IMG/VR virus record: IMGVR_UViG_3300027847_000878
Span: 1-29,238 of that record
Direction: 5' to 3' (one strand)
DNA from: a virus
DNA length: 29,238 nt
Shown here: one piece after another, positions 1-2,039 of the stretch
How positions within the stretch are numbered: the stretch's first letter is position 1
How the letters are laid out: each line of letters opens with the position of its first letter
Made by a program: the position numbers and the translations under genes
Notes under the pieces: generated by a model
Database searches by the model: none
What the model was told of the DNA's origin: nothing
What the model saw: only the letters and a program-made list of their open reading frames with translations

Positions 1-165
1 TAATTTTCCTGCTCCAGCAGAAATTTTCTTGTGTGCGGTATGACCAAGTATATCAGCCATGACTGGCTCACGCCACTTTGTTTTATCGGTGCCTTTAGAA
101 AATCCAAGTCTCTCCATCTCCAGATAAAGTGCATGGGAAAGTTCTTCTAGTTTTGAAACATTCAT
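1..165 (-). CDS. Hypothetical phage protein, N-terminal part only
   Basis: The reading frame opens with ATG at 163-165 and stays open to the window edge, giving 55 residues of an incomplete protein. It begins MNVSKLEELSHALYLEME and contains a distinctive ADILGHTAHKKISAGAG stretch. I have an impression that this resembles conserved small proteins of marine T4-like phages, but I cannot name the family or assign a function. The gene follows a consensus sigma70-type promoter (230-258) and a leader stem-loop (192-212), so it is probably expressed early. The real C-terminus and stop lie beyond coordinate 1. Confidence 0.7.
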   Translation of the reverse strand, partial: MNVSKLEELSHALYLEMERLGFSKGTDKTKWREPVMADILGHTAHKKISAGAGKL

Positions 166-191: not shown

Positions 192-212
192 GGAAAGGAA
201 TTCATCCTTTCC
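192..212 (-). other. Leader stem-loop, 8-bp stem
   Basis: GGAAAGGA at one arm and its exact complement TCCTTTCC at the other enclose a 5-base loop. The element lies downstream of the -10 box of the promoter at 230-258, so it would sit about 10 nt from the 5' end of the transcript and upstream of the start codon at 165. There is no U-tract, so it is not an intrinsic terminator. A 5'-end stem-loop that stabilises the mRNA or positions ribosomes is the inferred role. Confidence 0.6.
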
Positions 213-229
213 TCACTCACTATACTTAT

Positions 230-258
230 ATTATAACAAGTCCTCGACCCTTTGTCAA
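230..258 (-). promoter_or_regulatory. Sigma70-type promoter with extended -10
   Basis: The minus strand carries TTGACA (253-258), a 17-bp spacer and TATAAT (230-235), a perfect match to the bacterial housekeeping consensus. The bases TGT immediately before TATAAT form an extended -10. An A-rich tract reading GAAGAAAAAAC lies directly upstream of the -35 box. It sits between the alpha-CTD-like gene and the truncated gene at 1-165 and would drive the latter. Confidence 0.85.
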
Positions 259-272
259 GTTTTTTCTTCACT

Positions 273-758
273 TTATTTTAATGTCATTCCAAAATCAAGT
301 CCCATTACAGTAAGAAGAGTTCTAATCTCGTTAGCAGTTTTTCTACCGAGGTTTCTGTATTTCAACACATCTTGCCATGACATCTGTACTAGGTCTTTTA
401 CAGTTTCAACAGGTTTTTTGTCTATTTTACTCCAATGGATAATTATATTCAAAGACTTAATAGCTCTGGTTGACAATTTTTCAAATAAGTCTTCAACTTT
501 GAGATCGAGGTAAAGGTATCCACTTTCTTCTATCTCTGAAAGTACCTCTGGAGTTGATTTGAAGTCGTGTCTCATCTCTATGAGGGTATCTACGAGATCC
601 CACTTGGTCTCTCTAAGGTGATCTAACGCAATCTCTAAAGATGCGATCTTCTCTACAGTGTTCTCCAAGTGACTTACCGTAGTCTTCTTGAGTACGATGG
701 TGAACTCTGCATCATCTCTCTTAGTAGGTTTGTTCTCAGGCAATTCCATAATAATCAT
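273..758 (-). CDS. Protein with RNA polymerase alpha-CTD-like C-terminal domain
   Basis: This 161-residue protein has two parts. Residues 1-90 are charged, mostly helical and unrecognised. Residues 91-161 read like the C-terminal domain of bacterial RNA polymerase alpha subunit: FEKLSTRAIKSL, then TVKDLVQMSWQDVL, then YRNLGRKTANEI, ending MGLDFGM. Against E. coli alpha, R98 aligns with R265, G138 with G296, K140 with K298 and E144 with E302; N268 and C269 become K101 and S102, and S299 becomes T141. Most residues that contact UP-element DNA are therefore kept. There is no alpha N-terminal assembly domain, so it is not a full subunit. It is preceded by its own consensus promoter (810-838). A role in steering or replacing host alpha-CTD contacts is inference. 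The start could be M1 or M4. Confidence 0.8.
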   Translation of the reverse strand: MIIMELPENKPTKRDDAEFTIVLKKTTVSHLENTVEKIASLEIALDHLRETKWDLVDTLIEMRHDFKSTPEVLSEIEESGYLYLDLKVEDLFEKLSTRAIKSLNIIIHWSKIDKKPVETVKDLVQMSWQDVLKYRNLGRKTANEIRTLLTVMGLDFGMTLK

Positions 759-782
759 AATTAATTCTCGTCTATTTGATTC

Positions 783-795
783 AGGGTTATTCCCT
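783..795 (-). other. Short leader stem-loop
   Basis: AGGG, a 5-base loop and CCCT lie downstream of the -10 box of the promoter at 810-838, in the leader of the alpha-CTD-like gene. The stem is only 4 bp and weak on its own. It is listed because three other promoters in this window carry a leader stem-loop in the same relative position. Confidence 0.35.
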
Positions 796-809
796 CATCT
801 TCACCTATA

Positions 810-838
810 ATTATACAGGATGTTGGTATCTTTGTCAA
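810..838 (-). promoter_or_regulatory. Sigma70-type promoter for the alpha-CTD-like gene
   Basis: TTGACA (833-838), a 17-bp spacer and TATAAT (810-815) give a perfect consensus promoter on the minus strand. The tract GAAGAAAAAAC precedes the -35 box, identical to the promoter at 230-258. It lies in the gap between the membrane-protein gene (stop at 852) and the start at 758. Confidence 0.85.
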
Positions 839-851
839 GTTTTTTCTTCAT

Positions 852-1250
852 TTATCTGTACATTTCTACTAGTTTTTGTATCAAATTCATAGCAACTGAA
901 GTCGCTGGAATAACACTGCCTAACATGACTGCTTTATCATTCCAGTAAAATCCTACAGCAGTCCAACATCCAGTACCAATAATATAAAAAACTTGGCCAT
1001 ATATGGGTAGTCCTGCATTTTGTAGAAATATTCCAAACACAGCCGCAACTACACCTATCCATTTGAGATAGCTGTCTGGGCCGCCAGATGGTGTACTAGG
1101 GGAGACTTCTTCAAACTGAGCCTGCATTTCCTCAAGTTCTTCTTGCAGACGTTTCTTTTCTTTAGAGAGTTCCATAGCAAGACTTGCAGCCTTGCCCATC
1201 TGTCTTTCTTCTTTATATTCTACTTGAGTGTTGTCTTTTTCTTCGGTCAT
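852..1250 (-). CDS. Small membrane protein with coiled coil and about three TM helices
   Basis: The 132-residue product begins with a charged segment; residues about 20-50 are rich in E, K, Q and L and form a likely coiled coil. A short S/P/G linker follows, then hydrophobic stretches at about 61-78, 84-103 and 107-125 that look like transmembrane helices. There is no signal peptide. The size and layout would suit a holin or another inner-membrane phage protein, but I recognise no family motif and assign no function. It starts 14 bases beyond the stop of the upstream 81-aa gene with no convincing Shine-Dalgarno sequence. A consensus promoter begins just after its stop codon. Confidence 0.7.
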   Translation of the reverse strand: MTEEKDNTQVEYKEERQMGKAASLAMELSKEKKRLQEELEEMQAQFEEVSPSTPSGGPDSYLKWIGVVAAVFGIFLQNAGLPIYGQVFYIIGTGCWTAVGFYWNDKAVMLGSVIPATSVAMNLIQKLVEMYR

Positions 1251-1264
1251 GATATAGTTTTATT

Positions 1265-1510
1265 TTAGTTCATTTTAAATGTTCTATCTACCATTCTAAC
1301 TTTACTTTGCTCTTGATCGTAAATATATACTTCTTTTATTGGGCCGTCAATGTTCTTATCCCAATAGTCGAGAAAACGTTTGATGCGGGGAAACTCAGGC
1401 ACTTGGTCTTCTGTTTGCCACATAAATTCGTTTACAACGTGCAAATAGTCTGGTATGTAGTAAACAACTTGGACAGTAGCAACCGTCCACTTGTGTAAAA
1501 TATAAGCCAA
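1265..1510 (-). CDS. Conserved small phage protein, likely TTG start
   Basis: The open frame extends upstream to 1573, but its only ATG starts (1573 and 1543) lie inside the dUTPase gene with poor ribosome-binding sequences. A TTG at 1508-1510 sits five bases after an AAGGA motif, one base past the dUTPase stop, and gives an 81-residue protein starting with (M)AYILHKWTVATV. It is rich in aromatic residues (YYIPDYL, FMWQTED, FLDYWDK) with no recognised catalytic motif. I have a recollection of similar small proteins in marine T4-like phages, but the function is unknown. If the ATG at 1543 is used instead, the protein is 92 residues and overlaps dUTPase by 32 bases. Confidence 0.65.
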   Translation of the reverse strand: MAYILHKWTVATVQVVYYIPDYLHVVNEFMWQTEDQVPEFPRIKRFLDYWDKNIDGPIKEVYIYDQEQSKVRMVDRTFKMN

Positions 1511-1511
1511 G

Positions 1512-2039
1512 TTAGTCCTTTCCAGTTGATCCGAATCCTCCATCTCTATCAGTTTTTTGTTCTGGGCGAACATCAGTTTCCATAATCATATATGATAGTT
1601 CATTGACAAGCTCTGCTTGACAAATACGATTTCCATCGAATACAAATTGTTGATATCCACTTATGTTACAAACCATCATGTAAACTGGTTCGACATAATC
1701 AGAATCTATAATACCTACGTTGTTAGCAAGTGTCAGTCCTTGTTTGAGAGCAAGACTTGACCGAGGATATAAACGAACAGAGTGACCAGTTGGAATATCA
1801 AAAATCAATCCAGTAGGAATCAATGCTCGTTCATTCTTATTAATCTGAACTTTTCCGTCTACAACTTTTCTTTTCCGTTTATCCAACTGTTCATGAGCAT
1901 TCATATAGACACTTACTTCTGAATTCTCTGGTAAAAATGAACACAAGTCAAAACAAGCAGAACCTGTTGTAGCACGAATAGGGGTTTTTACTGCTGGGTC
2001 TGTTCTGTAAAAATGTAAATCATTTGTCATTCTCAACAT
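1512..2039 (-). CDS. dut: dUTP diphosphatase (trimeric dUTPase family)
   Basis: This enzyme hydrolyses dUTP to dUMP and pyrophosphate, keeping uracil out of phage DNA and supplying the dTMP precursor. The five family motifs appear in order: motif 1 ATTGSACFDL, motif 2 PRSSLALK, motif 3 with GIIDSDYVEP, motif 4 RICQAEL, and the glycine-rich C-terminal motif 5 RDGGFGSTGK. The protein is 175 residues, slightly longer than typical because of an insert between motifs 1 and 2. The chosen ATG at 2037-2039 follows AGGAAG at good spacing; an ATG at 2030 is possible. The start overlaps the end of regA, so the two are translationally linked in the replication operon. Confidence 0.93.
   Translation of the reverse strand: MLRMTNDLHFYRTDPAVKTPIRATTGSACFDLCSFLPENSEVSVYMNAHEQLDKRKRKVVDGKVQINKNERALIPTGLIFDIPTGHSVRLYPRSSLALKQGLTLANNVGIIDSDYVEPVYMMVCNISGYQQFVFDGNRICQAELVNELSYMIMETDVRPEQKTDRDGGFGSTGKD

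Follow-up and report, generated by a model that had tools for sequence, protein, structure and literature searches.

The window, the whole 29,238-base stretch of viral contig IMGVR_UViG_3300027847_000878, carries on its minus strand a T4-like set of genes, with those for portal, scaffold and major head proteins, a helicase, SbcC/SbcD-like nucleases, a cobS-like gene, the sliding clamp, the clamp loader genes gp44 and gp62, RegA and a dUTPase. The virus is a T4-like marine myophage that infects bacteria. Among the nearest named phages in a gp44 comparison are Pelagibacter phage Mosig and Synechococcus myophages, each at about 60% identity. The presence of a Usg-like gene suggests that the host may be an alphaproteobacterium. 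This gene (window 1265–1573, minus strand; PF06233, E = 2.1e-19) occurs in 53 of 80 relatives and had no match among PHROGs or in the phage collection. It is followed by a DUF6552 gene and then by the gene under study, which encodes a protein of 161 amino acids with the C-terminal domain of the RNA polymerase alpha subunit (alpha-CTD):

852–1250, minus strand: DUF6552 gene (Pfam 5.7e-10), in the same order in relatives and the last conserved gene before a variable slot.
273–758, minus strand: gene of the 161-aa alpha-CTD-domain protein, with an ATG start, a PF03118 match and a GC content of 0.37, against 0.349 for the window.
1–165, minus strand: the following cargo ORF, truncated at the window boundary, with no family match.

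Relatives with gp44 identities of up to 99% have their genes in common down to DUF6552 and diverge beyond it. In these relatives the slot holds an N6/N4 DNA methylase (E = 5.7e-33), a GmrSD-type gene (1.6e-8) and, judged by eye, Dam-like and nuclease-like ORFs. No alpha-CTD gene was detected in the relatives, either in 80 loci by tblastn or in 44 records by PF03118, about 16–20 of which reach the slot. The alpha-CTD-domain gene is accessory cargo in a variable slot of a T4-like marine myophage. Four close relatives carry there a Mom-family gene paired with an unnamed 169-aa ORF, behind which it lies (L027:3216–4049, L028:4956–5606, L030:5097–5735 and L031:9984–10723; Mom was identified by PF25680, E = 1.4e-48, for L027 and by sequence likeness for L028, L030 and L031). 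Two others encode a 532-aa protein with GmrSD_N and a weak HNH domain (L006:3244–4842 and L015:4234–5832; the domains were read from L006, and L015 has the same sequence start).

The gene is flanked by two promoters that share 21 bp, with a leader, GAGAATTAATTATG, similar to those of the adjacent cassettes:

810–838, minus strand: sigma-70 promoter of the gene, TTGACA-17-TATAAT, with 12 of 12 matches to the consensus.
840–845, minus strand: A-tract AAAAAA directly upstream of the −35 element, resembling a proximal UP element and belonging to the shared box TGAAGAAAAAACTTGACAAAG.
230–258, minus strand: second perfect promoter, downstream of the gene and before the next (cut) ORF, with the same 21-bp box.
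192–212, minus strand: hairpin GGAAAGGATGAATTCCTTTCC followed by a T-run, PeSL-like, within the leader that follows the second promoter (z −2.4).

Given the perfect TTGACA-17-TATAAT, the gene is probably transcribed by a host sigma-70-type polymerase. The initial annotation had described an A-tract promoter belonging to this gene and had suggested that the protein might bind there. The perfect promoter and the AAAAAA at 845–840 are indeed present; the special link to the protein is not supported, as the box is a general one. Perfect TTGACA-N17-TATAAT copies number 5 in the window, against 0.09 expected by chance, and the box GAAAAAACTTGACAAAG recurs. Close variants of the GAAGAAAAAACTTGACAAAG box lie at 5 window sites, within relatives, and in cargo slots of relatives that hold other genes; where a slot carries a GAAGAAAAAACTTGACAAAG-like box with other genes, no alpha-CTD gene was present in the stretch seen. 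Of the 16 relatives in which the junction after DUF6552 is readable, 10 carry a perfect promoter at that point and another 4, judged by eye, one that is nearly perfect, with quite different genes behind. Because copies recur in the window and precede other genes at the same junction in relatives, the 810–838 promoter is a generic one, the standard strong promoter of this phage clade. It gives nothing specific on the target of the protein, and we rejected the idea that the gene's own promoter is specific evidence of that target. An A-run of at least 4 lies directly upstream of 71% of 84 perfect promoters (from 80 gp44-related loci), compared with 11% of control TTGA sites.

The protein divides into two parts:

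276–518, minus strand: alpha-CTD domain, residues 81–161, from Pfam, phmmer, a MAFFT alignment, an AlphaFold model and its fold match.
561–722, minus strand: N-terminal single long helix, residues 13–66, predicted by the AlphaFold model, a possible coiled coil.

The initial annotation had placed an alpha-CTD at residues 91–161; the domain itself is borne out, with its limits moved to about 81–161. PF03118 (RNA_pol_A_CTD) matches residues 86–149 with 38.1 bits (E = 1.3e-9), above the curated Pfam cut-off of 23.8 bits, and compares with 13 bits for the general helix-hairpin-helix (HhH) family. In phmmer searches against the PDB, RNA polymerase alpha chains alone were listed (best E = 2.8e-6), and the protein has no Pfam match to sigma-70 region 4 or to an HTH domain. 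The alpha N-terminal domain is lacking, as the annotation had said of this 161-aa protein: the NCBIfam rpoA models align by their C-terminal part only, and far below cut-off. On sequence and model alike, the last ~80 residues of the protein are a true RNA polymerase alpha-CTD domain.

An AlphaFold model built from an alignment of 22 relatives (18 viral-contig proteins, the L122 protein described below and 3 cellular RpoA tails) reached a mean pLDDT of 87.5, against 33 from the single sequence, and has helices at residues 13–66, 70–83, 88–94, 97–108, 120–124, 128–132 and 139–151. Model residues 81–161 superpose on E. coli alpha 250–319 (3n4m, 1lb2 and 3n97, all complexes of alpha-CTD with CAP or sigma4 and DNA) with Z 11.2–11.4 and 1.3–1.4 Å over 70 residues at 36% identity, and Caulobacter alpha-CTD bound to AT-rich DNA matches with Z 11.5. 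Across all alpha-CTD matches, Z runs from 11.5 to 11.2 and the rmsd from 1.3 to 1.9 Å. Because the next unrelated folds, of the RAD51-family HhH type, reach at most Z 7.6 with 8–10% identity, the domain is an alpha-CTD and not the generic helix-hairpin-helix that the initial annotation had named as the other possible outcome of a structure prediction (Z 11 against 7.6, the latter at 8% identity).

The N-terminal part, which the initial annotation had called unrelated, is predicted to form a long helix, and no relatives of it were detected. Its pLDDT block means are mostly 80–96, on an alignment that holds no homologues of this part. The coiled-coil signal is weak, because the hydrophobic period of 3.52 was attained by 22% of shuffles, which makes the heptad test not significant. 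This part had no match in phages, nor in 115 genomes from the same class as the L123 genome (Alphaproteobacteria by title), a search run without a positive control. A match to PF09545 (RE_AccI) was set aside, as its score lies below the family cut-off. We found no polymerase-binding motif in the 161-aa protein.

In E. coli, N268 is a key DNA contact of alpha-CTD, and we take R265, N268, C269, G296, K298, S299 and E302 together to be its DNA-contacting positions. The family alignment and the model uphold the residues reported as retained, namely R98 (R265), G138 (G296), K140 (K298) and E144 (E302), and the alignment adds N136 (N294). The changes reported at N268, C269 and S299 are also present, as K101, S102 and T141; of the seven-residue determinant, R, G, K and E are thus kept and N, C and S have become K, S and T. 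Arg265 is crucial for contact with the UP element (PMC2988021). The R98 column holds arginine in 21 of the 22 relatives (MAFFT), and R98 is the second residue of helix 97–108, helix 1 of the domain in the model. Pairing R98 with R265 requires 2 extra residues before R98 and ~9 after it, the latter lying between R98 and helix 2 of the domain, so that helix 1 and the following loop are longer; the viral relative L087 likewise has a long stretch at this point. The assignment of R98 is good but not absolute, because the pairwise phmmer alignment pairs R265 with H108 instead. The aspartate of the D259 position is retained as D90, and E288 is matched conservatively by D130; the activator-contacting V287 and R317 are replaced by Q and T, the V287 position being variable in all relatives.

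No close homologue of the protein was found in viral or genome contigs. A whole-protein peptide-pattern scan of viral contigs returned no relative, and in genome contigs its matches were L122, a phage-like protein, and three rpoA genes of cellular origin; a scan built from the window and L122 proteins together found no relative. In alignment-based scans, distant alpha-CTD proteins turned up in 19 viral contigs. Searching with a DNA pattern for GRKTANEI gave unrelated ORFs only, and the best tblastn phage match, MT839982.1 (L082), named 'Bacteriophage sp.', was judged on reading its sequence to be a bacterial rpoA–rplQ fragment. L122 is PULY01000023.1, a contig binned as a Diapherotrites archaeon; it has genes that resemble those for terminase and portal proteins, encodes an alpha-CTD protein of bacterial type and is probably a phage fragment. 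Phage proteins with an alpha-CTD domain have already been annotated, so the 161-aa protein is not unique; we found no functional study of one in the open-access literature.

Among the viral-contig relatives, six join alpha-CTD to sigma-70 region 4 and one joins it to HTH_17. The sigma-70 region 4 fusions, all from IMG/VR, are L088:5422–6129, L093:5536–6168, L094:5350–6135, L097:4849–6153, L102:5392–6132 and L103:5236–6198; HTH_17 is also found in L094 and L103, and L089:5152–6156 is the HTH_17 fusion. These proteins look like transcription factors of phages or mobile elements that form a recurring class.

We tentatively favour the reading that the protein is an alpha-CTD tethered to a stalk, which would bind A-tract DNA and tune transcription by the host polymerase, and we rank it above the others considered. 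The product of the accessory gene, which is probably expressed early, would be a small protein whose helical stalk carries an alpha-CTD head. Like alpha-CTD, the head would most likely bind UP-like A-tract DNA in the minor groove, and two heads may be paired through the stalk. Placed on A-tracts before strong phage or host promoters, the protein would raise or lower the access of host RNA polymerase and so act as a transcription modulator. In favour of this reading are the Pfam and NCBIfam matches, the fold match to alpha-CTD from complexes with DNA, CAP or sigma4, the retained equivalents of R265, N294, G296, K298 and E302, the perfect sigma-70 promoter and the abundance of A-tract promoters in the clade. 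Fusions of alpha-CTD to sigma4 or HTH domains in other viral contigs are as expected of transcription factors. Against it stand the lysine in place of N268 and the changes at C269 and S299, and DNA binding could be impeded by the additional loop next to helix 1. The stalk has no homologue, and its heptad signal is weak. A-tract promoters are equally present in relatives where no such gene was seen, so that the phage group can use them without it. In its most specific form, in which the phage supplies its own free and possibly dimeric alpha-CTD to occupy the UP-like A-tracts of the clade's promoters, a route distinct from modifying or cleaving alpha, we think the proposal unlikely.

The fold matches that favour DNA binding come equally from complexes with CAP and sigma4, and the protein might instead act as a decoy or competitor of host alpha-CTD at the protein level, binding host activators or sigma region 4 in its place, so that activator-dependent host genes are switched off or polymerase is redirected. 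Retention of the D259 position by D90 and the conservative D130 are consistent with this, and phages target host RNA polymerase alpha in other ways, through Alt and ModA of T4 (PMC2988021) and Rac of phiKMV-like phages (PMC7552054). The replacement of the activator-contacting V287 and R317 by Q and T speaks against it, but the argument is weak because the V287 position varies in all relatives; we regard a decoy as rather improbable. A comparably low probability attaches to a role outside transcription, as an HhH DNA-binding cargo protein that, for example, protects phage DNA, masks restriction sites or serves a neighbouring restriction-modification-like gene. The same slot in relatives holds Mom, N6/N4 methylase and GmrSD-type genes, the L122 alpha-CTD-like protein adjoins apparent terminase and portal genes, and in CcrColossus the domain is joined to a part that the RefSeq record names histidyl-tRNA synthetase; sequence and fold are, however, specifically those of alpha-CTD (38 against 13 bits; Z 11 against 7.6).

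The presence of a separate N-terminal helical part beside the alpha-CTD domain, together with the UP-like A-tracts of the phage promoters, would also suit a re-tethered alpha-CTD, in which the stalk binds polymerase (or another phage protein) and provides phage promoters with a third alpha-CTD in place of one disabled by the phage or a rival. We found, however, no polymerase-binding motif to go with a stalk that has no relatives, and no alpha-modifying enzyme among the scanned genes of this fragment, which leaves this the least probable of the readings. If the favoured reading, binding to A-tracts, is true, the protein would offer a clear example of phage control over host transcription through a copy of a polymerase part and not through an enzyme, and it would suggest a function for the annotated phage alpha-CTD proteins; with sigma4–alpha-CTD fusions recurring in other viral contigs, the question is a general one.

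Compared with known proteins, the likeness to the RpoA C-terminal domain (PF03118) is one of fold (Z 11.4, 1.3 Å, 36% identity over 70 residues) and of the R265, N294, G296, K298 and E302 positions, whereas the 161-aa protein differs from RpoA in having no alpha-NTD, in N268K, C269S and S299T, in ~9 extra residues after R265 and in its long N-terminal helix. The annotated phage proteins, including A0A6J5SA90 and A0A6J5QDR9, are small proteins named for the domain, mostly 111–204 aa and too short for a full alpha, and are only 19–27% identical to it. Unlike in the 161-aa protein, the alpha-CTD domain of Caulobacter phage CcrColossus gp133 is N-terminal, in a protein of 284 aa; CcrColossus and Erythrobacter phage vB_EliS-L02 (ORF40), which carry the related domain, are large siphophages and not T4-like. 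The L122 protein (214 aa, from a phage-like contig in a MAG) shares an N-terminal extension and the alpha-CTD, with LSTRA...TVKDL...LGRKTANEI, but is without the long loop after helix 1. The sigma4– and HTH–alpha-CTD proteins carry a sigma-70 region 4 or HTH domain for which the 161-aa protein shows no Pfam match. T4-like phages are said to have their genes shuffled by promoter early stem loops (PeSLs; PMC4503421); the repeated promoter around the gene resembles them, as do the hairpin and T-run, the hairpin being clear only after the second promoter (230–258), and we treat the likeness as a lead only. T4 Alt and ModA and phiKMV-like Rac share with the favoured reading the control of host polymerase, in their case through alpha, and T7 Gp5.7 shares the control of host-polymerase promoters by DNA binding; none of these is an alpha-CTD, the group consisting of enzymes or another DNA-binding fold.
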